Positions 13,421 through 53,621 of a stretch of DNA of 64,000 nucleotides are shown in pieces. How positions within the stretch are numbered: position 1 is the first letter of the stretch; each line of letters starts with the position of its first letter. A program made the translations under genes and the position numbers. Origin of the DNA: Tistrella mobilis (lineage in GTDB: Bacteria; Pseudomonadota; Alphaproteobacteria; Tistrellales; Tistrellaceae); the NCBI RefSeq assembly GCF_041468085.1, contig NZ_CP121017.1, forward strand, positions 3,165,676 through 3,229,675, in the 5' to 3' direction. Below the pieces are notes generated by a model, which was given only the letters and a program-made list of their open reading frames with translations, was not told the origin of the DNA and did not search any database.

Positions 13421-14617
13421 TCACAACGTGCGGTCGCGGGCGGCGATCAGGCCGTTGACCAGGGCCACCAGGCCGATGCCGGTGAGCAGCCAGGCGACCA
13501 GCGACCAGCCGCCGGTGATTTCGTGGATCAGGCCGATGGCGAGCGGCCCGAGCGCCGCCAGGGTATAGCCCACAGACTGCGCCATCCCTGAGAGCCGCGC
13601 CGCCGTCATCGCATCACCCGACCGCAGCACGATCATCACCAGCGCCAGCGCGAAACAACCGCCCTGGCCGATGCCCAGAACCACCGCCCAGGGCCACATG
13701 GCAGCAATCGGCCCCCACATCATGCCCAGCATGCCGGCAATGGTGCAGAGCATGATGCCCAGAACCCAGAGCTGCTGATTGCGCCGCCGGGCCGCCAGCA
13801 CCGGCACGAACAGCGCCGAGACCGTCTGCACCAGCAGCGACACCGAGACCACCAGACCCGACATCACCACGCTGATGCCGCGATCCTGCAGGATGCTGGG
13901 CAGCCAGCCGAACACCGAATAGGCGAGCGAGCTTTGCAGCCCCATGAACAGCGTGATCGACCAGGCGAGCGGCGAGGTCAGCAGCCGCGTGCCGGTCTGG
14001 GGCCGATGCCCCGCCCGGGTGTCCAGATGCCGCGCCGCCGGCCACCAGACCGCGGCGGCGAGCAAGGCCGGGATCGCCCAGACGCCCAGCGCCACCGCCC
14101 AGCTGCCGCTGGCCTCGGCGATCGGCGCGGTGACACCGGCGGCAATCGCCGCCCCGCCGCACAGCGCCATGGTGTAGATGCCGGTCAACAACCCGGCTTT
14201 GTCTGGAAAGGCTTGTTTTACAACCCCTGGAAGCAGAACACCGGCAATGCCGATGCCGGCACCACCGAGCAGCGAGCCGGCGAACAGGCCCACGGGACCA
14301 AGAAAGCCGCGCAGCACCACGCCCATGGCGATCATCACCAGCGCCACCACCGCAGCGGCCGGCACGCCGATGCGGCGGGCGAGCATGGGGGCGGCCGGGC
14401 CGAACAGGCCCAGACACATCACCGGCAGGGTGGTCACCAGGCTGGCGGTGGCGCTGTCGAGGCCCAGAGCGTTCGACACCGTGCCGAGCAGCGGCCCGAT
14501 GCTGGTCAGCGCCGGGCGCAGGTTCAGCGCCACCAGCACGATGGCAACGATCAGCAGAAGCACGGCGCCGCGGCGGGCCGCGGCCGGGGATTGCGGGGAC
14601 GAGGTGGACATGGTCAC
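13421..14617 (-). CDS. MFS transporter, CynX/NimT type
   Basis: 398 residues, about twelve transmembrane segments, with LNLRPALTSIGPLL near the N-terminus, the signature of cyanate/2-nitroimidazole-type MFS carriers. The GTG at 14617 overlaps the stop of the upstream regulator (GTGA, 4 bp); an ATG two codons later is an alternative start. The tight coupling suggests the regulator controls this exporter or importer. The substrate cannot be read. Confidence 0.88.
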   Translation of the reverse strand: MTMSTSSPQSPAAARRGAVLLLIVAIVLVALNLRPALTSIGPLLGTVSNALGLDSATASLVTTLPVMCLGLFGPAAPMLARRIGVPAAAVVALVMIAMGVVLRGFLGPVGLFAGSLLGGAGIGIAGVLLPGVVKQAFPDKAGLLTGIYTMALCGGAAIAAGVTAPIAEASGSWAVALGVWAIPALLAAAVWWPAARHLDTRAGHRPQTGTRLLTSPLAWSITLFMGLQSSLAYSVFGWLPSILQDRGISVVMSGLVVSVSLLVQTVSALFVPVLAARRRNQQLWVLGIMLCTIAGMLGMMWGPIAAMWPWAVVLGIGQGGCFALALVMIVLRSGDAMTAARLSGMAQSVGYTLAALGPLAIGLIHEITGGWSLVAWLLTGIGLVALVNGLIAARDRTL

Positions 14618-15381
14618 AGACCGGGGGCTTTCAGTGTGCGGAGGGGCTTTGTACGGGAGGCTTTCGGGGGCGAAGACAGGTCGGACAACCGGCCTTCGAC
14701 CACCGCCATCAACGGCGCCAGCAGGTCGCGTGCGGCATGCGCGGCCCGATCGGGATCGCGCGCGGCAATGGCGTCACGCACCGCGACATGGGCCGCAAGG
14801 CTCGGCTCCGGCAGGCTCCGATCGGCGAGCGAGATGCGCAGATAGCGGCGCAGCTGGTTGGTGAACCAGCCGTAGAGTTCGGCGAGCGCGGCATTGCCCG
14901 CGGCCTCGGCCACCGAGAGGTGGAAGGCGATGTCCTGTTCCAGATAGGCCTCGAAGGCAGCCGGATCGGTGGGGGCCGGCTCGACCAGACCGCGGCCGGC
15001 CAGGGCGCGGTCGATGCGGGCCAGGCTGTCGGGCGTGACCCGCAAGGCCGCCAGCCGTGCCGCCTCTACCTCCAGCGCCGCACGCAGCTCCAGATGATCG
15101 CGCAGCCCGGCATTGGCGACGCGGCGAAGCGCATCGGCCGGCTCGTCGACGGCGCGGATATAGGTGCCGTCGCCCTGGCGAACCTCCAGCAGGCCCAGAT
15201 AGGCAAGCGCCCGCACGGCCTCGCGCACCGTGCCGCGGCCGACGCCCAGCGCCTGGGCCAGTTCCGGCTCCGGCGGGATCCTGTCCCCCGCACCCCAACC
15301 ATCCTGGCCGATCTGGGCACGCAACCGCTCGATCGCGGCATCGACGAGACTGCGCCGGGCGACGGCGCCGAGGCTGGACAT
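14614..15381 (-). CDS. FadR-type GntR transcriptional regulator
   Basis: 255 residues: winged helix at about 12-75 (ELAQALGVGRGTVREAVRAL) and a helical FCD ligand-binding domain (LELRAALEVEAARLAA ... FHLSVAEAAGN ... HVAVRDAIAARD). The frame stays open upstream into the surf1 gene, but the ATG at 15381, with GGAG about 10 bases before it, is the sensible start and gives the normal family length. It is translationally coupled to the downstream MFS gene. FCD regulators usually sense organic acids. Confidence 0.9.
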   Translation of the reverse strand: MSSLGAVARRSLVDAAIERLRAQIGQDGWGAGDRIPPEPELAQALGVGRGTVREAVRALAYLGLLEVRQGDGTYIRAVDEPADALRRVANAGLRDHLELRAALEVEAARLAALRVTPDSLARIDRALAGRGLVEPAPTDPAAFEAYLEQDIAFHLSVAEAAGNAALAELYGWFTNQLRRYLRISLADRSLPEPSLAAHVAVRDAIAARDPDRAAHAARDLLAPLMAVVEGRLSDLSSPPKASRTKPLRTLKAPGL

Positions 15382-15512
15382 GAACGACAGGCTCCGCTGA
15401 CATCGGTTCAGCAGATCATCGGATGTTTCGGCGCAGGATGCGAGCAGGAATGCGGGATGAAACAGGGCGGCCCCGCGGGACCGCCCTCGCCGCGCCGCCG
15501 CTGCATCAGAGA

Positions 15513-16301
15513 TCAGCCGCGCCGCCGCCGGATTTCCGAGCGGAGAACATAGGCCGCCCCCGCCGCCGACATCAGGGCGAGCGTGAACCAGGTGAGCGCG
15601 TAGACCAGATGGCTGTCGGGAAAGCTGACTTTCGTCAACCCGCCCACGGGATAGCCGCCGGGGGCGGTTTCCGCGGCATCGACGAAATAGGGTGCTGCCT
15701 CCGCCAGCCCGCGGGCCCGGGCGATCGCCGCCACGTCGCGGGAATACCAGGCCTCCGCCGCCGGGTCGTTCTCGCGCAGGAAGCCGCCGCCGGGTTCGGT
15801 GATCCGCAACAGACCCGTGACCGTGGTATCGGTTCCGATCTGGCCGGCGGCACGGCTGGCCGGGTCTTTCCGTTCCGGCGGCACGAAGCCGCGATTGACC
15901 AGCACGGTGAAGCCGCGATCGTCGGCGAAGGGCGTCACCACCCAATAGCCGGCGCCGAGATCGGTGGTGGCGCGGACCAGGGTTTCGCGGTCGTTCAGGA
16001 AGCGGCCGGCAAGCGCCACGCGGCGATATTCATCGCCGTCGCGGTCGATCCGGGGCCAGGTATCGCGACCCGGGGCCGCGACCGGATCCTGATGGATGCG
16101 GGCATCGATGCGCGCGATCAGATCATGCTTCCAGGCCCGGCGTTCCACCTGCCAGATGCCCAGCGCCAGACCGCCGGCAATGCCAATGAGAAAGAGGACG
16201 CCCACCAGAATGAGCGTCCCCGTCCTGCGGCCGCGCCGCCCGCCGGGAGGGGCCCCCTTTTCGGGCAGGCCTCCTTCCGGCGTGATGTCGCCTTTCGGCA
16301 T
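15513..16301 (-). CDS. SURF1-family oxidase assembly protein
   Basis: 262 residues from the ATG at 16301. A GTG at 16307 overlapping the cyoD stop is also possible; a more upstream ATG would lie inside cyoD. There is one membrane segment near the N-terminus (TLILVGVLFLIGIAGGLALG), then WQVERRAWK, a periplasmic domain with VLVNRGFVP, and a C-terminal membrane segment ending LVYALTWFTLALMSAAGAAY. SURF1 proteins help insert haem into haem-copper oxidases. It is the last gene of the cyo operon; no cyoE haem O synthase follows it. Confidence 0.93.
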   Translation of the reverse strand: MPKGDITPEGGLPEKGAPPGGRRGRRTGTLILVGVLFLIGIAGGLALGIWQVERRAWKHDLIARIDARIHQDPVAAPGRDTWPRIDRDGDEYRRVALAGRFLNDRETLVRATTDLGAGYWVVTPFADDRGFTVLVNRGFVPPERKDPASRAAGQIGTDTTVTGLLRITEPGGGFLRENDPAAEAWYSRDVAAIARARGLAEAAPYFVDAAETAPGGYPVGGLTKVSFPDSHLVYALTWFTLALMSAAGAAYVLRSEIRRRRG

Positions 16302-41994: not shown

Positions 41995-43071
41995 ATGCAG
42001 ACCGATGCCGGCGACACGCTCTCGACCGGCTTCGTGCACGGGTTGCTGGAGGCGGCAGCCGGCATCACCACGCCCGACCGGCTGCGCAGCTTCGTCGCCG
42101 CGGCCGGCATCGCCCCCGACCTGCTGGATGCGCCGGCGGCCCGCGTGACCCGCGACCAGATGGTGGCGCTGTACCAGCAGGTGGCCATCGGCACCGGCGA
42201 CGAGATGATGGGGCTGTGGTCGCGACGGATCCGCACCGGATCGCTGAAGCTGCTGTGCACCGCGATGCTCGATGCGCCCTCGATCCTGACCGCGCTCTAT
42301 CGCTTCACCCGGGTCTGGAACCTGCTGCTCGACGACTGGCGGCTGGACTGCCGCCGCCTGGGCGAGACCATCGAGGTGACGCTGGAGAAAGCCGCAGACG
42401 ACGCCCGGACCCGCCCCTTCGGCCATGCGCTGATGATGAAGCTGCATCACGGCGTGACCTCGTGGCTGGCCGGCCGGGAAACCCCGGTGACCGGGGTGGA
42501 TTTCGCCTTCCCGGCACCGGCCCATGCCGCCGATCACGCCCTGCTCTTCCCCTGCCCCGTGCGCTTCGACGCGCCGGTCACCCGGCTTTGCATGCCGGCC
42601 GCGATCGGGCGGGAGAGCTTCCGGCGCAGCCGGCAGGAGATGCTGCCTTTCCTGCAGGCGGCCCCGCGGCAATGGCTGTTCACCACACTGCGCGAACCGC
42701 AGATGGCCGACCGGGTGCGCGACGAACTGGCCCGCCATCTGTCCGGCCCCGCCGATCTGGCGGCGGTGGCCGCCGCCCTCGGCCAGTCGACCCGCAGCCT
42801 GTCACGCCGGCTGGCAGAGGAAGGCACCAGCTTCCGGGCGGTGAAAGAGGCGCTGCGCCGCGACATCGCGATCCGCGACCTCACCCGCACCGACCGGCCG
42901 ATCGCGGCGATCGCGGCGGCGCTGGGCTTCGATTCCGCCGCGGTCTTCCACCGTGCCTTCAAAAGCTGGACCGGCAGCACCCCGGGGGCCTATCGCCAGC
43001 CGGGCGGCGGGGCGGCCGGCGGGGAGAGCGGCGCTCCTACTTCGCGGCGCGGAACACGAGCGGGTTCATGA
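41995..43071 (+). CDS. AraC-family regulator (OruR/ArgR-like N-terminal domain)
   Basis: 358 residues from the ATG at 41995 (GGCGGAGAT upstream). The N-terminal half is the arabinose-binding-like domain common in AraC regulators of fatty-acid or amino-acid catabolism. The C-terminal double helix-turn-helix shows DLAAVAAALGQSTRSLSRRLAEEGTSFRAV and IAAIAAALGFDSAAVFHRAFKSWTGSTPGAYR. It is divergent from the enoyl-CoA hydratase gene with a 165-base shared control region. Its last 35 bases overlap the convergent FAD oxidase gene. Confidence 0.92.
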   Translation: MQTDAGDTLSTGFVHGLLEAAAGITTPDRLRSFVAAAGIAPDLLDAPAARVTRDQMVALYQQVAIGTGDEMMGLWSRRIRTGSLKLLCTAMLDAPSILTALYRFTRVWNLLLDDWRLDCRRLGETIEVTLEKAADDARTRPFGHALMMKLHHGVTSWLAGRETPVTGVDFAFPAPAHAADHALLFPCPVRFDAPVTRLCMPAAIGRESFRRSRQEMLPFLQAAPRQWLFTTLREPQMADRVRDELARHLSGPADLAAVAAALGQSTRSLSRRLAEEGTSFRAVKEALRRDIAIRDLTRTDRPIAAIAAALGFDSAAVFHRAFKSWTGSTPGAYRQPGGGAAGGESGAPTSRRGTRAGS

Positions 43072-44464
43072 TGCCCTTGGGATCCACCGCCTTGCGCAGC
43101 CGGGCGATCAGCTCGGCGCGCGGCTTCGGGCAGCGCCTGGCATAAGAGGCGGCCTTCAGCCGGCCGATGCCGTGCTCAGCGCTGATCGAGCCCGAGAACT
43201 GATCGACCACCCGATAGGTGATGTCCGACACGCCCTCGACCGCATCCCTGGATGCACCGGCCGGCAGCTGGACGTTGAAGTGGATATTGCCGTCGCCCAG
43301 ATGGCCGAAGGGGTTGATCAGCGCATCCGGATGCACCCGCCAGATCGCTTCCGAGGCTGCATGGACGAAGGCCGGCACGTCGGACACCTGGACCGAGACG
43401 TCGTGCTTGACCTGAATGCCCGGCGCCAGGCGCTGGCCTTCGACGATGGCTTCACGCAGCAGCCAGAGCGCCTTGGCCTGGGCCTCGCTTTGGGCAATCG
43501 TGCCGTCGGTGACGAGCCCGGCCGAGAAGGCCTCTTCGACCAGCCGGTCCAGATCCTCCTGCAGGCGTTCGTCGGAACGGCCGGAGATTTCGGTCAGCAC
43601 CGTCCATTCCGGCCGGCCGTCCAGCGGGTCGACCGCGCCCGCCACATGGGCGGTGGCGAAATCGATGCCCTGGCGCGGGATCAGCTCGAAGCTTTCCACC
43701 GCATCGCCGGTGAATTCGCGGCAGAGCGACAGCAGCTTCGGCCCGTCGGCGAGCGAGGGCAGCGCGAAGAACAGGGTGCGGCTGGCGCGCAGCTGCGGGA
43801 ACAGCTTGAGCGAGGCGGCCGTCACGATGCCGAGCGTGCCCTCGGCGCCGATGAACAGCTGCTTCAGATCATAGCCGACATTGTTCTTGCGCAGGGTGGT
43901 CAGCTCCGACAGCACCGAGCCGTCGGGCAGCACCACCTCCAGCCCCAGCACCAGATCGCGCATCATGCCATAGCGCATCACATGGATGCCGCCGGCATTG
44001 GTGGCGATCAGCCCGCCGATCTGGGCGGTGCCTTCGGCCCCCAGGCTGAGCGGGAATTTGCGCCCGGCATCGGCGGCGGCACGCTGGACCGTCTCCAGCA
44101 CGCAGCCCGCCTCCACCACCATCGAGAAATCGATGGTGTCGAGCGCACGGATCCGGTTCATCCGGCCCAGCTGCAACAGGATCGAGGCACCGTCGAGCCC
44201 CGGCACCGCCCCGCCGACCAGGCCGGTATTGCCGCCCTGGGGCACGATCGCGATCCCGGCCTCGGCACAAAGCCGCACCACGCCCGCGACCTCTTCGGTC
44301 GATTGGGGGCGGACCACGGCGATCGCCCGGCCCTTGTAGAGCTTCCGCCAGTCCTCGAGAAACGGCGCCATGTCGCCGTCATCGGTGATCAGACCGCGCG
44401 GGCCGGTGATCCCGCGCAGGCGGTCGATCAGGGTGTCGGGCGCGATGGTGGCGGCGGCAGGCAT
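43037..44464 (-). CDS. FAD-linked 2-hydroxyacid dehydrogenase (GlcD/D2HGDH type)
   Basis: 475 residues. FAD-binding PCMH fold: VPQGGNTGLVGGAVP, LSLGAEGTAQIGGLIATNAGG and GAEGTLGIVTAASLKLFP. The C-terminal FAD-oxidase domain has INPFGHLGDGNIHFNVQ and SAEHGIGRLK (metal/substrate His residues). Members oxidise D-lactate, glycolate or D-2-hydroxyglutarate. It is divergent from the FadR-amidohydrolase fusion gene, with a FadR-type operator between them, so it probably works in the same pathway. Confidence 0.9.
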   Translation of the reverse strand: MPAAATIAPDTLIDRLRGITGPRGLITDDGDMAPFLEDWRKLYKGRAIAVVRPQSTEEVAGVVRLCAEAGIAIVPQGGNTGLVGGAVPGLDGASILLQLGRMNRIRALDTIDFSMVVEAGCVLETVQRAAADAGRKFPLSLGAEGTAQIGGLIATNAGGIHVMRYGMMRDLVLGLEVVLPDGSVLSELTTLRKNNVGYDLKQLFIGAEGTLGIVTAASLKLFPQLRASRTLFFALPSLADGPKLLSLCREFTGDAVESFELIPRQGIDFATAHVAGAVDPLDGRPEWTVLTEISGRSDERLQEDLDRLVEEAFSAGLVTDGTIAQSEAQAKALWLLREAIVEGQRLAPGIQVKHDVSVQVSDVPAFVHAASEAIWRVHPDALINPFGHLGDGNIHFNVQLPAGASRDAVEGVSDITYRVVDQFSGSISAEHGIGRLKAASYARRCPKPRAELIARLRKAVDPKGIMNPLVFRAAK

Positions 44465-44587: not shown

Positions 44588-44604
44588 CAGTTGTCAGACA
44601 ACTG
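44588..44604. promoter_or_regulatory. FadR-family operator
   Basis: CAGTTGTCAGACAACTG is a perfect 17-bp palindrome. Its core TTGTCAGACAA fits the FadR-subfamily consensus TNGTNNNACNA at every fixed position. It lies between the divergent FAD dehydrogenase gene (start 44464) and the gene for the FadR-type fusion protein (start about 44709), so it is the obvious binding site for that protein. Confidence 0.75.
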
Positions 44605-44708
44605 ACGTCATGCTACTCGTGACAACAGGCCGCGCCACTGGCATCAAGACCCTATGGGGACCCGCTTTGCGGGCTCCGCCATCCAAGGACAAGGCGCGAC
44701 AGACGGGG

Positions 44709-46370
44709 ATGAAACACGTGACCGACCGCAGCGGAAAGGCGCCGGAACGTCAGTTCCAGGCACTCAATCGTCCGAAAAGACTGTCCGACGAGATCGCCCG
44801 GCAGATTTCCGAGCGGATCGCGACCGGTGTCTTCGCCCCGGGCGAACGCATGCCGACCGAGGCCGAACTCGCCGTCGAGTTCGCCGTGGGCCGCAGCGCC
44901 ATCCGCGAGGCGATCGCAAAATTGAGACAGGAAGGCCTGGTCACCACCCGCCAGGGTGTGGGCGCCTTCGTGACCGAGGATCCGGGTGCCGCCTCGTTCC
45001 AGATCGACACCGACGGGCTCAGGACCATCGAGGATTTCCGTCATGTGATGGAACTCCGCATGGAACTGGAGGTCAGCGTCGCGGCCATGGCCGCGCGCCG
45101 GCGCAGCCGTGCCCAGCTGGAGAAGGTCGAAGAGGCGTTCCAGGCCCTCAAATCCCGGCTGGAGCGGGGGGAAGCGGCGGTCGACGAACAGCACGCCTTT
45201 CACCGCGCGATCGCCATCGCAAGCAACAACCCGCATTACCGCGATTTCATGCAGTTCCTGGCCTCGCGCATCCGCGTGGCGCTGTCGGTGGAAACCGAAC
45301 GCGCGACCGGCGGCCGCGATGCCGCGCGCAAGCTGCTGCGTGAATTCGAGGGAATCCTGACGGCCGTCCGCCTGGGCGATCCGGACAAGGCCCGCCGCGC
45401 GGCCTGGTTCCATCTGCTCCGGTCGGCGGACCGACTGGGCCTCCGCGGCCTGCAGGGTTGGGAAGAAAGCAGGATGACCTTGATCGGAGAGAATCTCATA
45501 CCGGTCTGCGCCCCCGCAGATCCGCAGCCGCGCAAGCCGCGCTTCACCCCGCCGCCGGGCGCCTGCGACTGCCATGCGCATATCTTCGGCCCCGAAAGCC
45601 GCTACCCTTACACGCGGCATCGCACCTATACCCCGCCGGATGCCCTGCTGCCGGCCTATAAGCACATGCTGGCCACGCTGGGCATTCAGCGGGCGGTGAT
45701 CGTGCAGCCCAGCGTCTACGGCACCGACAACCGTGCCACCCTGGATGCGATCCGTGCCGGCGGCCCGGATTTCCGCGGCGTGGTGGTGGTGGACGAGAAT
45801 ATCGACACCGCCGAGATGGAGCGGATGCACGAGGCCGGCGTGCGCGGCGTGCGCATCAACCTGCTGTTCAAGAGCGGCATCGAGGTCTCGGACGTCCGCC
45901 GCCTGGCCGAGAAGATCGCGCCCTTCGGCTGGCATATGCAGATGCTGATCGACGTGTCGGAATTCGCCGACATCCGCGAGACCCTGGGCCGGCTGCCGGT
46001 CGATGTGGTCTTCGATCATCTGGGCCATATGCCGACCTCGATCGGCACCGACCATCCGGGCTTCCAGGAGATGCTGTCGCTGCTGGCCGATGGCCGCGCC
46101 TGGGCCAAGATCTCGGGCGCCTATCGCATCACCTCGGCCAGCCGCACGCCCTATGACGATGTGGCGCCCTATGCCCGCGCGATCATCGCGGCCAATCCGG
46201 AACGGGTGGTCTGGGCCAGCGACTGGCCGCACCCCTATGTCAACATCCCGATGCCGAATGACGGCGACCTGCTCGACATGCTCGACGACTGGGCGCCCGA
46301 CGCCGCCACGCGCGACCGCATTCTGGCAACCAACCCCGCCAAACTCTACGGCTTCGAAGAGTCGTTTTAG
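44709..46370 (+). CDS. FadR-type regulator fused to an amidohydrolase
   Basis: 553 residues from the ATG at 44709 (an ATG at 44610 is possible, but the operator lies just before it). Residues about 20-90: winged helix (LSDEIARQISERIATGVFAPG, then AVGRSAIREAIAKLRQEGLV). About 110-250: FCD ligand domain. From about 265: metal-dependent amidohydrolase of the pyrone-dicarboxylate lactonase-like group, with CDCHAHIFGP, VVFDHLGHMP and VVWASDWPHPY. The join is in frame with no stop. An ATG at 45475, with GGGAAGAAAGCAGG just before it, could still produce the enzyme alone. A regulator carrying its own pathway enzyme is rare. The downstream TRAP genes suggest uptake of the same acid or lactone. Confidence 0.85.
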   Translation: MKHVTDRSGKAPERQFQALNRPKRLSDEIARQISERIATGVFAPGERMPTEAELAVEFAVGRSAIREAIAKLRQEGLVTTRQGVGAFVTEDPGAASFQIDTDGLRTIEDFRHVMELRMELEVSVAAMAARRRSRAQLEKVEEAFQALKSRLERGEAAVDEQHAFHRAIAIASNNPHYRDFMQFLASRIRVALSVETERATGGRDAARKLLREFEGILTAVRLGDPDKARRAAWFHLLRSADRLGLRGLQGWEESRMTLIGENLIPVCAPADPQPRKPRFTPPPGACDCHAHIFGPESRYPYTRHRTYTPPDALLPAYKHMLATLGIQRAVIVQPSVYGTDNRATLDAIRAGGPDFRGVVVVDENIDTAEMERMHEAGVRGVRINLLFKSGIEVSDVRRLAEKIAPFGWHMQMLIDVSEFADIRETLGRLPVDVVFDHLGHMPTSIGTDHPGFQEMLSLLADGRAWAKISGAYRITSASRTPYDDVAPYARAIIAANPERVVWASDWPHPYVNIPMPNDGDLLDMLDDWAPDAATRDRILATNPAKLYGFEESF

Positions 46371-46481
46371 CCCCTCGCCGGGCAGCCACTCCGTGGCCTT
46401 GGCCGCCGCCTCAATGGCGGGAGTCGTTTTAGCCCCTCGGCCCAAGCGGCCACTACCGTGGCCTTGGCCCCCGTCTCGCGA
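46359..46481 (+). repeat. Imperfect 62-bp tandem duplication after the fusion gene
   Basis: Both units begin GAGTCGTTTTAGCCCCTCG, which includes the stop codon of the fusion gene, and both contain a GCCAC...GTGGC hairpin followed by CTTGGCC. The second hairpin (46448-46463, GGCCAC-TACC-GTGGCC) is perfect. It sits in the gap before dctP and may attenuate read-through. Confidence 0.75.
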
Positions 46482-46510: not shown

Positions 46511-47506
46511 ATGGGTTTCACCCGACGCACCCTTCTCGGCGCTGCACTCGGCCTCGGCGCGCTGGTCGCCACCGTGCCGGCGATGGCCGCCGACGTCACC
46601 CTGAAGCTGGGCTGGACCACCTCTGACGGTGCCACCGACCCCTATGCGATCGCGGCGCGCGACTTCGCCGCGGCGCTGGAAGCCGAGATGCCCGGCGTGT
46701 TCGAGGTGAAGTACTTCCCGAACCGCCAGCTGGGCGACGAGAAGGAAATGATCGAAGGCATGTCCTTCGGCACCATCGACGGCGGCATCATCACCAATGC
46801 GGTGATCGCCAATGTCGAGCCGGCCTTCCAGCTGCTGGACCTGCCCTTCCTGTTCGCGAACGAGGCCCAGGCCCACAAGGTGCTGGACGGCGATGTCGGC
46901 CAGGAGCTGATGGGCAAGCTGCGCAATCGCGGCATCATCGGCCTTGGCTTCGCCGAAGGCGGCTTCCGCCACATGATCAACAACACCCGGCCGGTGGCCA
47001 ACCCCGACGACGTGTCGGGCGTGAAGTACCGGGTGATGCAGAACCCGGTCTTCCTGGAGATGTTCAGCTCGCTGGGCGGCAACCCGGTGCCGATGGCCTG
47101 GGGTGAGACCTATACCGCCGTGCAGCAGGGCACGATCGACGGGCTGGAAATCCCGGTCGCGGTCGTCCAGGCCAACAAGTTCTCCGAGGTCACGAAGTAT
47201 CTGTCGCTCACCCGCCACACCTATTCGGCGCTGGGCCTGATGATTTCGAAGCGGACCTTCGACAAGATGACCAAGGAGCAGCAGGACGCCGTGCTGCGCG
47301 CCGCGCCGAAGGCGATCGCCGCCCAGCGCGCCGAGGTGGCCGAAAACACCACGAAGATCATCGAAGAGCTGAAGGCCGCCGGCATGACGGTCAACGAGAT
47401 CAACGATCCCGCCGCCTTCCGCGCCAAGGTGACCGGCGTCTACGACCGCTTCAAGCCGCGGATCGGTGCCGAGCTGATGGACAAGACCCTCGCCGAGGTC
47501 AACTGA
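46511..47506 (+). CDS. dctP: TRAP transporter substrate-binding protein
   Basis: 331 residues with a signal peptide (twin Arg in FTRRTLLG, hydrophobic core, cleavage after AMAA). DctP-family landmarks: YFPNRQLGDEKEMIEGMSFGTIDGG and GVKYRVMQNPVFLEMFSSLGGNPVPMAWGETYTAVQQGTIDGLE. It includes the conserved Arg of KYRVMQ that binds a carboxylate. It delivers an organic acid from the periplasm to DctQM. It follows the fusion regulator/amidohydrolase by about 140 bases. Confidence 0.96.
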   Translation: MGFTRRTLLGAALGLGALVATVPAMAADVTLKLGWTTSDGATDPYAIAARDFAAALEAEMPGVFEVKYFPNRQLGDEKEMIEGMSFGTIDGGIITNAVIANVEPAFQLLDLPFLFANEAQAHKVLDGDVGQELMGKLRNRGIIGLGFAEGGFRHMINNTRPVANPDDVSGVKYRVMQNPVFLEMFSSLGGNPVPMAWGETYTAVQQGTIDGLEIPVAVVQANKFSEVTKYLSLTRHTYSALGLMISKRTFDKMTKEQQDAVLRAAPKAIAAQRAEVAENTTKIIEELKAAGMTVNEINDPAAFRAKVTGVYDRFKPRIGAELMDKTLAEVN

Positions 47507-47559: not shown

Positions 47560-47656
47560 TGTCATTCGGGGCCAGCGCATCGCGCCCCTGCGCCCCGATC
47601 GCCTGTCCCCCCCGATCCCCTGTCCCCCGATCCTGACGGCAGACGGTAGCTTCCCC

Positions 47657-48163
47657 ATGTCGGCTTTGCTCCAGACCCTCTCGCGCGGGCTTGCCCGGGT
47701 AACCGGCTGGGTGATCGTGGCCATCACCACCTTGATGATGATGAGCCTGATCCTCCAGGTGTTCTCGCGCTATGTGCTCGGCCAGGGTTTCACCTGGACC
47801 GAGGAACTCGCCCTGTTCCTGTTCACCTGGGTCGTGCTGCTCGCCGCCACGACCGCGATCCGCGACGACGGCCATGTCCGCCTGCAGCTGTTCGTCGACC
47901 TGCTGCCGGGTGCTGCGCGGCGGATCTGGATGCGCCTCCTGACCCTCTCGGTGCTGGTCTTCTGCGTGGTGTTCGCGATGACCGGGGCCGAATACGTCTC
48001 GGCGACGCTGGGCCAGGTCTCGGCCGCGGTGCAATACCCGATCGAGGCGCTGCACATGGCGGCACCCGTCACCGGCGTGCTGGGCGCAATCCACGCCCTG
48101 GCCCGGCTGCTGGCCCCGCAATCGGTGATCGACGGCACCCCGGAAACCGGAGGCATGGTATGA
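47657..48163 (+). CDS. dctQ: TRAP transporter small permease
   Basis: 168 residues from the ATG at 47657; the frame is open upstream but only this start gives a normal DctQ. It has four membrane segments with VFSRYVLGQGFTWTEELALFLFTWVVLLAA, the family hallmark. The stop overlaps the dctM start (ATGA). Confidence 0.92.
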   Translation: MSALLQTLSRGLARVTGWVIVAITTLMMMSLILQVFSRYVLGQGFTWTEELALFLFTWVVLLAATTAIRDDGHVRLQLFVDLLPGAARRIWMRLLTLSVLVFCVVFAMTGAEYVSATLGQVSAAVQYPIEALHMAAPVTGVLGAIHALARLLAPQSVIDGTPETGGMV

Positions 48164-49443
48164 GCACCGCCGCAGCCGTTCTGCTGATCGTCTTCGCCGT
48201 CTGCCTGTTCGGCGGCGTGCCGATCGTCTTCTCGCTGGGCCTTGCCGCCATCGCCGGGCTCTGGGCCGCGGACTTCGATCTGATCGTGCTGGCCCAGCGC
48301 ACGATATCGGGCACCCAGGTCTTCACCCTGCTCGCCATTCCGGGCTTCGTTCTGGCCGGCGACCTGATGATGCATGGCGGGCTGTCCCGCCGCCTGGTCC
48401 GGCTCTGCCAGGTGCTGGTGCAGCATGTGACCGGCGGGCTCGGCATGGTCACCGTGCTGTCCGCCACCTTCTTCGCCGCGATCTCGGGCTCGGCACCGGC
48501 CACCACCGCGGCCATCGGCGGCATCATGGTGCCCGAGATGGAACGCCACGGCTGGAGCCGTCGCTTCGCCGCGGCACTCTCGACCGCCGCCGGCCCGATC
48601 GGGCAGATGATCCCGCCCTCGATCCCCATGGTGATCTGGGGCGTGGTGGCGGAGGAGTCGATCACCAAACTGTTCCTGTCGGGCATCGTGCCCGGCATCC
48701 TGATCGCCATCGGGCTGATGGTGGTGTGCTGGTTCGCAGCCCGCGCCCAGGGCATCCCCAGGGCGGCCCGCCGGGCGACGGCGCGCGAATTGCTGGTCGC
48801 GCTCAATGACGGCAAATGGGCGCTGGCGGCGCCGCTGGTCATCCTGGGCGGCATCTATGGCGGCATCTTCACCCCCACCGAAGCTTCGGCGATCGGCGTC
48901 GCCTATGCCTTCGTGGTGGGCATGTTCATCTATCGCGAACTGAAGGTCCGCGACCTGCCGGCCATCCTGCTCCAGTCGATGCGCACCACCACCATCGTCT
49001 GCAGCATCATCGCCGTCGCCTCGGCCTTCGGCTGGCTGGTCGCGATCGAGCAGCTGCCGACCGTGATCGCCGAGGCCATCCTGTCGGTGTCGTCGAACCC
49101 GATCGTCATCCTGCTGATGATCAACGTGCTGCTGCTGTTCATCGGCGCGATCATGGACAATGTGGCGGCGATGATCATCCTGGGCGGCGTGCTGACCAGC
49201 ATCGGCGCCAGCCTGGGGCTGGATCCGATCCATCTGGGCGCGATCGTGGTGATCAACTTCGCGATCGGCATGGCCACCCCGCCCTTCGGCTATTCGCTGT
49301 TCGTCGGTGCCGCGATCAGCAAACTGTCGGTCGAAGAGGTCTCGAAAGCGCTCTGGCCGATGCTGCTGGTCAAGATCCTGGTCCTGGCGCTGATCACCTA
49401 TGTTCCCTGGGTGGTGCTGGCCCTGCCCCGGCTGCTGGGGTGA
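48160..49443 (+). CDS. dctM: TRAP transporter large permease
   Basis: 427 residues, about twelve membrane segments. It has GGVPIVFSLGLAAI, SGSAPATTAAIGGIMVPEM, GPIGQMIPPSIPMVIWG and INFAIGMATPPFGYSLFV, all typical of DctM. It couples sodium or proton entry to solute import. It is the last gene of the dctPQM operon. Confidence 0.96.
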   Translation: MSTAAAVLLIVFAVCLFGGVPIVFSLGLAAIAGLWAADFDLIVLAQRTISGTQVFTLLAIPGFVLAGDLMMHGGLSRRLVRLCQVLVQHVTGGLGMVTVLSATFFAAISGSAPATTAAIGGIMVPEMERHGWSRRFAAALSTAAGPIGQMIPPSIPMVIWGVVAEESITKLFLSGIVPGILIAIGLMVVCWFAARAQGIPRAARRATARELLVALNDGKWALAAPLVILGGIYGGIFTPTEASAIGVAYAFVVGMFIYRELKVRDLPAILLQSMRTTTIVCSIIAVASAFGWLVAIEQLPTVIAEAILSVSSNPIVILLMINVLLLFIGAIMDNVAAMIILGGVLTSIGASLGLDPIHLGAIVVINFAIGMATPPFGYSLFVGAAISKLSVEEVSKALWPMLLVKILVLALITYVPWVVLALPRLLG

Positions 49444-49574: not shown

Positions 49575-50381
49575 ATGACAATCACCCGCTCTATCTTCAT
49601 CCTGGTCGTCACTGCCGGCGCCATGATGTCCATCGCCACACCGGCACGGGCCGGAACCGCGACGGCCCCCTGCGGCCCTGGCTTTGCGGCACCACTCCGG
49701 CTCGGCCCTCTCGCCAATGGCAACCCCGACCAGGCCTGGATGGCACTGCCGGTCGTCCATCTCTGGGGGCTCGACAATGCTGGCGTGGTGCAGGAAGACG
49801 GCCGGGCGATCCTTCAGGTCCGCTACCCCGAAGGATCGATAAACCCCGGCCGGCGGGACGCACCCAGGGGCGGGCTGGGATTCTTTCTGCCCGTCCCGGG
49901 CGCGCATGACGCCCGCGAGATCTGTTTGAGCTATGAGGTCCGCTTTCCCGACGGCTTCGCATTCGCACGCGGCGGGAAACTGCCCGGCCTCTATGGCGGG
50001 GATGCACCACGCGGTGGCGCCACAGACCGTATGGAGGGATTTTCCGCCCGGCTCATGTGGCGCGAGGCTGGGGCCGGCGAACTCTATCTCTATGCGCCGG
50101 ATCAGGCGCAGCCCTATGGCCAGAGCCTGGGGCGCGCGCATTTCTACTTCAGGCCCGGGCATTGGACCCAAGTCGTCGAGCATCTGCGCCCGGGTGTGGA
50201 TGGCCATCTGCGCCTGCTTATCGACGGTGCCGAAGTAACCTCGTTCCTGGGCCGGCTGCCCGTGGGCAGCGGCGCCGGACTGATGATGTCGACCTTCTTC
50301 GGCGGCAGCAGCCCAGACTGGGCGTCACCGCGCGACCAGTCTGCATCCTTCGCGGATATCACGATCTGGCTTCGGCCCTGA
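49575..50381 (+). CDS. Secreted polysaccharide lyase-like protein (PL14 type)
   Basis: 268 residues with a signal peptide ending near ATPARAGTA. It has a jelly-roll lectin/lyase pattern: EICLSYEVRFPDGFAFARGGKLPGLYGG, FSARLMWREAGAGELYLYAPDQ and STFFGGSSPDWASPRDQSASFADI, as in PL14-like alginate or glucuronan lyases. It lies tail-to-tail with the alg8/alg44 pair, which supports a role in trimming or releasing that polymer. Catalytic residues cannot be fixed by eye. Confidence 0.72.
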   Translation: MTITRSIFILVVTAGAMMSIATPARAGTATAPCGPGFAAPLRLGPLANGNPDQAWMALPVVHLWGLDNAGVVQEDGRAILQVRYPEGSINPGRRDAPRGGLGFFLPVPGAHDAREICLSYEVRFPDGFAFARGGKLPGLYGGDAPRGGATDRMEGFSARLMWREAGAGELYLYAPDQAQPYGQSLGRAHFYFRPGHWTQVVEHLRPGVDGHLRLLIDGAEVTSFLGRLPVGSGAGLMMSTFFGGSSPDWASPRDQSASFADITIWLRP

Positions 50382-50412: not shown

Positions 50413-52026
50413 TCAGCGCCCGCCGAACTGCATCATCGGTGTTTCAGCGGCCATCAGATCAATGTCGGAGCCCGAAGCCCGACCAAGCTGGCGGTCGGCT
50501 TGGCTGGCCACGTCGCCGATATAGGCGACGAACAGCACGAAGGCGATGACAGCGGCAATGTTGTAGACATACGACGTCAGACTGTTCAACACGGCGAGGC
50601 CGGTCGATCCTGAGCCAGCGGCCAGCTTCTGCCGGGTCCATTTCTGACGATAGGGATGAAAGCTCATGAACACCTTCACCACCGAGCCGACGAACTGGGT
50701 GTAATAGAGCAACGCCGGGAACCAGGGGTGAAACCGCCCCCCATGCAGGCCGATGACTACACTGTTGAAGCTTCGGGTCAGAACGATCCAGAAGACATAG
50801 ATCAGCAGAAACACCGGTGCATGGAGAAGGCCGAGCAGGCCCGCAAAGGTGGGGCCGATGAGCGTCGTCCACATCGACAACCGCTGATCCAGCAGACACA
50901 TCCACAGAAACCAGCCTGTACGACGTGGTCCCAGAGCCAGGGCGCGGCCATTGGCCCGGATCATGTTGCCATACCAGCGCGACATGAGCGCGAGACTGGC
51001 CGGCACGAAACCGCCTGCGGGCAGTTCTTCCAGCGGGTGAGCCACCGCATCCGGTACATAGAGCATGTTCCAACCGCTCCGCAACACCGCATACCAAGTG
51101 CTTTTGTCATCGCCGGTGAGCAGCGCAATCCGCCCCAGCCGCCAATGGTGTATCACATCGGAGCGCACGGCGACGATGAAGTCGGGGCGTGTAGCGATCT
51201 CGGCACGAAACAGCGACAACCGGCCGGTCAACACCATCACCTTGCGCGACAGCGACACCGAGCACATCAGCACACTGCGCTGTGCCATGCGCAGGCGATA
51301 CCATTCACGCTGCAACGTGCTGCCCTTCACCAGCGGCACATTTTCAGTGGTCACGGCGCCGATATCAGGGTTCGTCTGTATGATTGATGCGGCCCTGGCA
51401 AGACAGCCCTCGCCGAGCAAAGTGTCACCATCCATCAGGATCACCTGTGAACCGGGCTTCGGATGGCGCGCCGCGATCAGTTCAAGGGCATCCGCCATGG
51501 CGTGGCGCTTGCCCTTGCCCGCCTGGAACACCGGCAGCAGCACCACGCGCGCCGACTCGGCATGGCGCCGCACCACGCGGCGCAGCACCTCAATGTCGGC
51601 GGGATCGGTTACACCGGCAATGATGGTGGCACCGCTGCCACAGGCTGCAATCTCGTCGATCAGGCGCCCATAGACCGCCGCGTTCATCTGCGCCGACATC
51701 CGGAAGCTGGTGACGAGGATATAAAAATAGGGAAGAGGCAGACGAGCGGCATCGGCGGCGGCGCGGATACGGGGAAACACGAAGAACTTGTAGCGGAATG
51801 CCCTGACGTAATGCATCGCCGCCCAGGAATACCGCCAGATCCCGATGATGCCGATGGTCGCGATGAACACCGTGGTGCCCGGGGTCAGCACGGCCGTTGG
51901 CATGATGCTGGCCAGAAAAATGATCAGCATGATCCAGAACGCGATGCCGGCCCACATGGAGAAGCGTGGCGACGTCTCCTCGTAGCCAGGCAGCAAAACC
52001 TTGAACCGATCCACCGGCCGCTTCAT
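50413..52026 (-). CDS. alg8: Alg8-like beta-glycosyltransferase (mannuronan synthase type)
   Basis: 537 residues. Membrane segments flank a GT2 domain. It follows Pseudomonas/Azotobacter Alg8 closely: WRYSWAAMHYVRAF, VTSFRMSAQMNAAVYGRLIDE, VILMDGDTLLGEGCL (acceptor Asp motif), EWYRLRMAQRSVLMCSVSLS, HHWRLGRIALLTGDDKSTWY and QRLSMWTTLIG. The ATG overlaps the alg44 stop by 4 bp. The rest of the alginate operon (algD, K, E, G, X) is not in this window, so the product could be mannuronan or a related polyuronide. Confidence 0.85.
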   Translation of the reverse strand: MKRPVDRFKVLLPGYEETSPRFSMWAGIAFWIMLIIFLASIMPTAVLTPGTTVFIATIGIIGIWRYSWAAMHYVRAFRYKFFVFPRIRAAADAARLPLPYFYILVTSFRMSAQMNAAVYGRLIDEIAACGSGATIIAGVTDPADIEVLRRVVRRHAESARVVLLPVFQAGKGKRHAMADALELIAARHPKPGSQVILMDGDTLLGEGCLARAASIIQTNPDIGAVTTENVPLVKGSTLQREWYRLRMAQRSVLMCSVSLSRKVMVLTGRLSLFRAEIATRPDFIVAVRSDVIHHWRLGRIALLTGDDKSTWYAVLRSGWNMLYVPDAVAHPLEELPAGGFVPASLALMSRWYGNMIRANGRALALGPRRTGWFLWMCLLDQRLSMWTTLIGPTFAGLLGLLHAPVFLLIYVFWIVLTRSFNSVVIGLHGGRFHPWFPALLYYTQFVGSVVKVFMSFHPYRQKWTRQKLAAGSGSTGLAVLNSLTSYVYNIAAVIAFVLFVAYIGDVASQADRQLGRASGSDIDLMAAETPMMQFGGR

Positions 52027-53621
52027 GTCGTTGGCTCACCCGGATTGACGTCGGAGGTGAACCAGCCGATCCCTGTCAATTTGAACAGAAGATCGCCCGG
52101 ATGGATCCGCATGGCGACAATCGCCGGCACGCCGCTCACGGGTCTCGGCATCGATGGCGGCAACGTCACCGTGACCAGCGCGAAACGGCTGACAGCCCGC
52201 AATTGCTCGGGCAGACCGGTTCTGCCGGTGTTGCGCGGGTTAAAATTGATCCGAGCGATCCGTCCGTCGATCTCTTCGGCCTGATCAGACAGAAGAACGC
52301 GCGCCTCACCACCGATACGGAGATAGCGGACCTGATCGATCGGCAGCAGCACATCAACCTCGGTGCCCTGATCGTGGCCATCGCCCAGCCCGTAAACGGC
52401 GGTGCCAGCTTCCACATATTCGCCGTCCCTGGCGCCCTGCATCTCGACCACGCAGTCGCATGGGCTGCGGACCACAAACCGCGCCTGTCGGGCACGCAGG
52501 GTCGCCTCTTTGGCTGAGAGTTGTTCGCGCCTCTCGGCAAGACTGCGGCGCACATCGCCGGGAGTCTGGCGGGTGGCACGGGTGTCGCCGAGATAGAGAC
52601 CGGCACCGGCAAGCTTCAGTTCATCCCGCAACCGCTGGAGGGTTGCCTTTTCGTCGGCCAGGGCAATCTGGGCCTGACGCAAGGCCACCTCTGCCTCGTC
52701 GACCTGCACGGCAGCTGCGCGGCCATCTTTCGCAAGGCCGGCCCGGCGATCAAACAGGCGCTGACGAACCGCGACCTCAGACGTCATCAGACGCACACGT
52801 GTATCGGCGGCGGCAATGTCGGCCTGCAACTGGCCCACCCAGGAGCCAAAGGCGGCCTCCACGTCAGACAGATGTTCTACCTCAAGCTCGATCTGTTTCT
52901 GCGCTGAAACGATCTCCTGTTCCAGCGCCGCAATATCCTGTGGATTGACCGGCGCGCTGATCTCGAAGAGAACGCTGTCGCGCGTAACCGTCTCACCGGT
53001 CGTCGCGGTTGCCGCCAGCAGAAAGCCTGCCTGCGGCGCCCGCATCACGATTCGGTCCGACGCCACCGCCGCATATTCGGATTGAACGGTCAGGAAACTC
53101 GACAGCAGCGAGACGGCACCGAAGGCTGCCACGCCAATCGTCACCACCAGAATCGCCCCAAGCCGCAGCGCGGCCGACACTGCCCGCATCCGTCGGGTTG
53201 TTTCGTCGGAGAAACTGATCTCCGGAGGCATCCCGTGCGATGCCAGCCCAGCGACAGTGACAATGTCGCCCGACAGGTAATTGTCGACGATGTAGGACAG
53301 TGCCTCGGCCTGATCCGCCGTCATGTCGACGAACTGAAAACCACGCCCCTTGCCATCGACGACCCGCACTGCTTTCGCCAACAGTGTCAGCGTCGCTTCG
53401 ACATGCGGGAAGATGAAGATGAGACGGCACTTGAAGACATCACCGGCCTCGCAGTCCGGTGCGGAGGCTTCGAGCCCAAATCCACCCAGGCTCCAATCCG
53501 CCACCACATGCCGAACACCGTTGATCTCGACGGTCAGGGGGATATCGATCCGCGGATGGACCCGCTGCCCACTCTTGCTGGTGATCGGCGAGGGGCGAGA
53601 GGCGGGGTCGGATGCACTCAT
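52023..53621 (-). CDS. alg44: Alg44-like PilZ / membrane-fusion protein
   Basis: 532 residues from the ATG at 53621 (GAGGATATC upstream). The N-terminal PilZ domain has RVHPRIDIPLTVEI and DWSLGGFGLEA, the c-di-GMP binding pattern. There is one membrane segment (about 180-205), then a HlyD-like periplasmic part with long coiled coil (about 250-370) and a beta-barrel (PCDCVVEMQGARDGEYVEAG). This is the Alg44 architecture: it activates Alg8 on binding c-di-GMP. Gene order is alg44-alg8, the reverse of Pseudomonas. Confidence 0.87.
   Translation of the reverse strand: MSASDPASRPSPITSKSGQRVHPRIDIPLTVEINGVRHVVADWSLGGFGLEASAPDCEAGDVFKCRLIFIFPHVEATLTLLAKAVRVVDGKGRGFQFVDMTADQAEALSYIVDNYLSGDIVTVAGLASHGMPPEISFSDETTRRMRAVSAALRLGAILVVTIGVAAFGAVSLLSSFLTVQSEYAAVASDRIVMRAPQAGFLLAATATTGETVTRDSVLFEISAPVNPQDIAALEQEIVSAQKQIELEVEHLSDVEAAFGSWVGQLQADIAAADTRVRLMTSEVAVRQRLFDRRAGLAKDGRAAAVQVDEAEVALRQAQIALADEKATLQRLRDELKLAGAGLYLGDTRATRQTPGDVRRSLAERREQLSAKEATLRARQARFVVRSPCDCVVEMQGARDGEYVEAGTAVYGLGDGHDQGTEVDVLLPIDQVRYLRIGGEARVLLSDQAEEIDGRIARINFNPRNTGRTGLPEQLRAVSRFALVTVTLPPSMPRPVSGVPAIVAMRIHPGDLLFKLTGIGWFTSDVNPGEPTT

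Follow-up and report, generated by a model that had tools for sequence, protein, structure and literature searches.

DhdR of Achromobacter denitrificans is a GntR/FCD protein that is reported to repress D-2-hydroxyglutarate dehydrogenase until D-2-hydroxyglutarate releases it, and the core of its footprinted palindrome is GTTATCAGATAAC (PMC8651671). In the MocR regulators a GntR DNA-binding domain is fused to an aminotransferase-like sensory domain (PMC5320631). LigI, a 2-pyrone-4,6-dicarboxylate lactonase (PDB 4d8l and 4di8), has a chain without a DNA-binding domain. The gene described here lies in a window of 64,000 nucleotides from Tistrella mobilis, the window being the whole stretch of DNA that was analysed. 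It joins a GntR/FCD half, whose closest solved protein both by sequence and by fold is DhdR, to an enzyme half that resembles LigI.

The open reading frame at 44610-46370 on the plus strand is uninterrupted, and when read from the ATG at 44709, a start that is tentative, it gives a fusion gene (44709-46370) of 553 residues with its stop codon at 46368-46370. The protein has an N-terminal GntR winged helix-turn-helix (44781-44972, residues 25-88, Pfam E 2e-20) followed by an FCD domain (45045-45416, residues 113-236, E 3.1e-19), which is the domain order of the FadR subfamily of GntR/FCD regulators. Then comes an Amidohydro_2 domain of the LigI-like lactonase family (45564-46355, residues 286-549, E 1.7e-56), all three on the plus strand and each well above the Pfam gathering score that served as cut-off. 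The original prediction was of a FadR/FCD regulator continuing in frame into a metal amidohydrolase; the Pfam domains and the open frame bear out the fusion, but "metal amidohydrolase" was too specific, the closest solved structures being 2-pyrone-4,6-dicarboxylate hydrolases. AlphaFold, run with 41 sequences, modelled both domains well, but residues 249-262 between them had a pLDDT below 50 and, with a pTM of 0.59, the model gave no firm domain arrangement or interface. The fusion, as one open frame in each case, was found in Tistrella, Lutibaculum, Stappia, Shimia, Sulfitobacter, a Desulfobacterales MAG and a Denitrovibrio MAG; these seven lineages have ancestry in common, so that none of the counts out of seven given below is one of independent trials. 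At the end of the Tistrella gene there is a short tandem duplication, in which the 19 bases around the stop codon, GAGTCGTTTTAGCCCCTCG (46359-46377), recur exactly 62 bases downstream at 46421-46439 with a second near-repeat of 22 bases beside them.

The regulator half is 38-40% identical to DhdR in Foldseek alignments (PDB 9jpj, 9jpl and 9vkn). Upstream of the fusion gene is a perfect 17-bp palindrome, CAGTTGTCAGACAACTG (44588-44604), and its 13-bp core, GTTGTCAGACAAC, has the same layout as the DhdR core given in the excerpted report and equals it at 11 of 13 bases (PMC8651671). The core pattern GTTGTCNGACAAC has one perfect match in the 6.3-Mb genome and one more with one mismatch, and its backward-read control had 18 matches per strand at one mismatch or fewer. 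In all seven lineages the fusion gene has an operator-like site upstream of it that departs from the pattern at 0-3 of 15 bases; not one of the 267-292 control stretches per lineage, taken from the same source, equalled it. The unfused loci L055, L056 and L061 also have an operator-like site, with 3 mismatches. No such site was seen at the unfused pair of Billgrantia, where the best candidate had 7 mismatches, the same as the controls. A short palindromic operator near the promoter is a trait of GntR/FCD regulators and, at the level of sequence, the fusion gene has it; a sigma-70 promoter scan gave no match. We infer from the likeness to DhdR that the palindrome at 44588-44604 is a DhdR-like operator bound by the regulator half of the fusion. 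The GntR/FCD half would bind this palindrome around its core and repress its own operon, which consists of the fusion gene and dctPQM. It would probably repress as well the divergent gene for a FAD-linked oxidase resembling D-2-hydroxyglutarate dehydrogenase (43037-44464, minus strand), which shares the intergenic region that carries the putative operator.

Metal-binding FCD proteins use a set of Asp, His, His, and His. This set was scored as complete when it read D/E-H-H-H, Asp or Glu being accepted at the first place, and 12 of 33 regulator matches were dropped as repeat copies of a locus or of the genus of the window, so that 7 fused and 14 unfused regulators remained. None of the seven fused lineages has a complete set, a count in which one ancestral event may be counted seven times. 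The set is complete in 12 of the 14 unfused regulators, three of which are from the window genome (L004, L006, and L007), three from one genus (L055, L056, and L061), and the remainder partly from genomes of fused or overlapping carriers, not all of them adjoining the enzyme gene. The two exceptions are L006, whose alignment was cut short, and L090, which has Tyr for His as the second member. In Tistrella the four places read Q161, H165, F213, and H235. Across the fused lineages the first place is taken by Gln five times and by Glu twice, while the third place, position 213, reads F, Y, Y, Y, H, L, and L; the Stappia fusion also lacks the second member and that of the Denitrovibrio MAG the fourth. 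Judged by Asp/Glu-His-His-His, the fusion is an FCD protein without the complete set of the metal-binding FCD group and may lie outside that group. DhdR, by comparison, is not fused to an enzyme and has all four residues, D-H-H-H, in the alignment, whereas the fusion has an incomplete set and an attached enzyme. The incomplete metal set argues for a mode of action other than the response of DhdR to D-2-hydroxyglutarate.

The scattered replacements in the FCD domain read as relaxed constraint, which is what would be expected if the enzyme half took over sensing. R117 is kept in all seven fused and in 13 of the 14 unfused regulators and R187 in all seven fused ones, and for this reason a metal-free FCD ligand is possible in the fusion. 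E. coli FadR has no metal site, and it could be argued that the FCD domain is still the sole sensor, with a metal-free site like that of FadR, and that the fusion serves co-expression without any allostery. The two conserved arginines speak for this explanation. The lack of a complete set in every fused lineage, the varied residues at position 213, and the additional residues lost in Stappia and in the Denitrovibrio MAG speak instead for relaxed constraint, and we regard an FCD domain acting as the only sensor as an unlikely, if serious, alternative. The same comparison weakens the idea of a protein that uses two domains to sense its ligand, the retention of R117 being the point in its favour. 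Of the two proposed sensing domains, we think that the enzyme half is the likelier sensor: because every fused lineage has an incomplete set while most of the unfused regulators compared have a complete one, ligand occupancy of the catalytic domain, rather than of the FCD domain, would release the repressor from DNA.

The joint between the two halves, LGLRGLQGWEESRMT (45435-45479, plus strand, residues 243-257), is identical in all seven lineages and, with 15 residues, is the longest invariant run in the fusion protein, the next having 9 residues and lying in the enzyme part. It contains, 5' of an internal ATG, a purine run resembling a ribosome site, GGGAAGAAAG (45460-45469, plus strand), most of which is accounted for by the Trp-Glu-Glu codons. 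Among unfused relatives, the regulator stop and the enzyme start share an ATGA in Billgrantia (L026) and likewise in L055, the enzyme ATG is two bases past the regulator TAG in L056, and the regulator frame continues across the enzyme start in L061. In L055, L056, and L061, GGAGGA stands 5' of the enzyme start within the regulator frame, which there reads ...LEES, ...LEE, and ...PEE, respectively; the fused joint at the equivalent place reads ...GWEES-R-MT.... Since the joint lines up with the enzyme ribosome site in the regulator frames of these relatives, we infer that the invariant QGWEESRM is the former ribosome site of the enzyme gene, which is now translated. Starting from the ATGA overlap, a one-base shift suffices to bring regulator and enzyme into one frame. 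The fusion would have arisen when a slight change of frame between two genes that adjoined or overlapped took away the regulator stop and left the start codon of the enzyme, with its ribosome site, inside the joint. Conservation of the joint at the nucleotide level was considered and rejected, because there was no excess of synonymous-site conservation in it, variation being about as expected. The constraint is therefore apparently on the peptide, and this speaks for the long fusion as a genuine product.

The internal in-frame ATG that had been noticed at the joint is codon 256 (M256, 45474-45476, plus strand), with GGGAAGAAAGCAGG just 5' of it, and it is a candidate start of a free enzyme of 298 residues. 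Initiation was scored as the Shine-Dalgarno energy minus the folding energy of 50 bases. By this score M256 is the best in-frame ATG in six of the seven lineages, each having 10 to 20 ATGs, and the third of 16 in the Denitrovibrio MAG; when ATG, GTG, and TTG are all counted it ranks first in five of seven. The Shine-Dalgarno energy at M256 is -10.2 kcal/mol in four lineages, -6.0 in two, and a weak -4.2 in Tistrella. When the in-frame Met codons are ranked by this energy without the folding term, M256 comes first in four lineages, but it takes third place in the Denitrovibrio MAG, fourth place in Tistrella, and fifth place in Lutibaculum. In all seven lineages the stretch around the ATG folds less strongly than the surroundings of most codons do, 3% to 46% of codon positions being equally open. 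Rare codons peak at the joint when the seven lineages are taken together: 4 of 1000 shuffles matched the value anywhere and none of 1000 at the joint. This peak is driven by Tistrella and Lutibaculum and is weak once they are removed: among four other lineages 13 of 500 shuffles reached it at the joint, as did 78 of 500 with five other lineages. As a general sign of an internal start the rare-codon cluster was kept only in part, two lineages carrying the signal.

It could be that the full fusion is the sole product, the internal ATG and the ribosome-like site being fossils and the joint peptide serving to link the domains. That the synonymous variation of the joint is close to expectation, so that selection is on amino acids, is in keeping with this, as are the weak Shine-Dalgarno sequence in Tistrella and the equal invariance of residues 243-250, which lie 5' of the purine run. 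It fits poorly with the top rank of M256 in six lineages, with the Shine-Dalgarno energy of -10.2 kcal/mol kept in four, and with the rare-codon peak in Tistrella and Lutibaculum, and we consider it rather improbable that only the full fusion is made. The suggestion that the cell may make both fused and free enzyme is strengthened by the rank of M256 and by the alignment of the joint with the ribosome site of the relatives, and is tempered by the weak Tistrella Shine-Dalgarno sequence. Taken together, these features tip the balance towards a free enzyme made from M256. Internal initiation there would probably yield the free enzyme, and the long fusion would be the switch.

The solved proteins closest to the enzyme half are the 2-pyrone-4,6-dicarboxylate hydrolases and 4mup, an amidohydrolase of Agrobacterium. 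LigI aligns over nearly the whole of this half, with 36% identity in the best Foldseek match. Of ten LigI-aligned positions that were read, eight have the LigI residue in every one of the seven fused lineages, including the HxH motif, H437, and D505; D248 and the HxH motif of LigI are retained. The enzyme half has the full-length Amidohydro_2 barrel and the HxH, His, and Asp active-site residues of the LigI-like/COG3618 lactonases. Against the 4-sulfomuconolactone hydrolases (NF042924) it scored 226.9 bits, well short of the curated cut-off of 500. At LigI R130 the fused enzymes have Lys or Arg; at R183 they have His and in the Tyr156 region Q-M-L. The substrate is probably not pyrone dicarboxylate because of these last two differences, and the enzyme half looks like an intact lactonase-like enzyme with a substrate other than that of LigI.

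The catalytic half might also be a dead or dispensable passenger on an ordinary repressor. The Denitrovibrio MAG could be cited for this since, some 3 kb from its fusion, it carries a second, paralogous gene for the enzyme alone. The aligned catalytic residues are intact in all seven lineages, however, and the other enzyme-half matches listed, from five other carriers and the window genome, have at most 42% identity, so that we regard a mere passenger as very improbable. The unfused paralog of the Denitrovibrio MAG (L015, 10620-11507, minus strand) heads a TRAP operon on the opposite strand, and it is possible that in this organism fusion and free enzyme come from two genes. Separately, five Sphingobium plasmids (AP027337.1, AP027312.1, AP027322.1, AP027334.1, and AP027319.1; H23-H27) have enzyme matches, over query residues 244-549, that fall under features annotated as a GntR regulator and an alpha-hydroxy-acid oxidising enzyme. 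These plasmids may hold a further regulator-enzyme neighbourhood.

Downstream of the fusion gene, all on the plus strand, are the genes for a TRAP transporter: the solute-binding protein DctP (46511-47506), the small permease DctQ (47639-48163, with a tentative start codon), and the large permease DctM (48160-49443). The three genes lie 3' of the fusion in Tistrella, Lutibaculum, Stappia, Shimia, and Sulfitobacter. In the Denitrovibrio MAG the Dct genes are on the opposite strand, pointing at the fusion, behind the separate enzyme gene; the Desulfobacterales contig, which ends shortly past the fusion, had no Dct match. The best PDB match of the divergent FAD oxidase of Tistrella is 3pm9, a putative oxidoreductase, followed by human D-2-hydroxyglutarate dehydrogenase. 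Lutibaculum and Shimia have as their downstream neighbour a YdiJ-like FAD/iron-sulphur protein, with scores of 1077 and 936 bits that are below the cut-off of 1350. The Tistrella oxidase and the YdiJ-like neighbours have FAD-oxidase domains in common but are only distantly related, with 27-32% identity in the matched parts. DhdR and the fusion are both tied to D-2-hydroxyglutarate dehydrogenase, which DhdR represses and a likeness of which adjoins the fusion gene. Because both types of dehydrogenase occur beside a DhdR-like regulator, a D-2-hydroxy dicarboxylic acid is indicated, and the substrate of the enzyme is presumably the lactone of such an acid. The lactonase half would open a carboxylated lactone, perhaps 2-hydroxyglutarate lactone, imported by the TRAP system, and the opening would give the D-2-hydroxy acid for the dehydrogenase. 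A literature search for a 2-hydroxyglutarate lactonase brought up work on oral bacteria.

Other genes of the window are mentioned here for their own sake. A polysaccharide lyase family 14 gene (49575-50381) follows the TRAP genes, and no link between it and the fusion was seen. The region at 50413-53621 (minus strand) encodes a PilZ domain and HlyD-type secretion domains, adjoins a glycosyltransferase gene, and looks like an exopolysaccharide system under cyclic-di-GMP control. At 14617-15945 (minus strand) is another GntR/FCD regulator, in which about 200 residues of open frame without a Pfam match precede the GntR domain; its start has probably been placed too early.

The search for the same fusion elsewhere, which the original prediction had called for, found it unbroken in all three Tistrella genomes examined, the window's own among them, with 99-100% identity, and in another six lineages, which belong to three nominal phyla, with 61-72% identity to the window protein. 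Separate genes in all close relatives, the finding that was to count against it, are thus not what the genus has, and the regulator-enzyme fusion is confirmed. That an assembly or sequencing artefact removed a stop codon can be dismissed as practically negligible, given the same open frame in the three genus genomes and the six other lineages. A scan of genome contigs gave 42 loci, seven of which (L012-L018) have the fusion, the Tistrella match being plasmid pTM3 of Tistrella mobilis. Among plasmid records with a match, one of 157, the Tistrella plasmid, reached at least 80% query coverage. The class sample of 385 genomes had the fusion only in the three Tistrella genomes, with 21 others matched by the enzyme part alone, a number that depends on the search cut-off used, and the phylum sample of 398 genomes had it only in the window's own. 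In the samples of Shimia's family (345 genomes), Stappia's family (87), the order of the Desulfobacterales MAG (194), and the genus Sulfitobacter (62), the carrier itself was the one genome with the fusion, and none of 151 genomes of Billgrantia's family had it; in most genomes behind these counts only part of the first-look candidates were scored. The fusion is therefore rare and patchy. Ten long open frames ahead of unfused enzymes, a subset of all such frames, contained Amidohydro_2 alone in every case and a regulator domain in none.

In an enzyme tree of 80 rows, from which 14 duplicate loci and matches below 220 residues were excluded, as they were from the topology test, the seven fused rows fall in one group with support of 97/99. 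This group also includes two unfused rows on long branches, the Denitrovibrio-MAG paralog and L097, whose placement is unsure on account of these branches; fission in them is possible. A tree constrained to keep the seven fused rows together was not rejected (p-AU 0.434). Independent origins of the fusion are unneeded on these two results, which fit one origin followed by transfer. The two carriers outside Pseudomonadota, those from Desulfobacterales and Denitrovibrio, are metagenome bins, so that misbinning and transfer look alike in them.

Based on these findings, we propose, as a reading about as likely as not, that the gene encodes a single-chain, autoregulating repressor-lactonase whose catalytic domain may sense and whose enzyme is also made free from an internal start. 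Regulator and enzyme would probably serve one and the same pathway. In a fuller version, which we hold only tentatively, the FCD site decayed after the fusion, the catalytic lactonase is the sensor, its substrate frees the repressor from DNA, and the old ribosome site still makes free enzyme. If the proposal is true, one gene would give a scarce sensor-repressor and a plentiful catalyst. Living relatives show the build-up of a regulator-enzyme, from adjacent genes to overlap, to fusion, and to an incomplete sensor site. It can be tested here whether a catalytic site can replace the dedicated ligand pocket of a transcription factor and how a repressor is kept scarce and an enzyme plentiful from a single gene. 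The suggested activity is that of a hydrolase of carboxylated lactones tied to D-2-hydroxy acids, and the protein is a possible biosensor scaffold.

Bifunctional regulator-enzymes are already known, and the GntR/FCD-amidohydrolase fusion is apparently undescribed: none was found among the titles and abstract openings brought up by searches of the open-licence literature, a scope outside which most subscription papers fall. PutA is an enzyme and a transcription regulator in one chain, with domains that differ from those of the fusion. We know of no retained internal start for a free enzyme in PutA or in BirA. BirA is likewise one chain that is enzyme and transcription regulator, and the architecture of the fusion is similar with different domains. 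This architecture fits the bifunctional regulator-enzymes known as trigger enzymes. MocR regulators have no FCD domain. They and the fusion are alike in having a GntR DNA-binding domain joined to an enzyme fold but, unlike in MocR, the enzyme half of the fusion still has its catalytic residues and is preceded by an FCD domain of full length.
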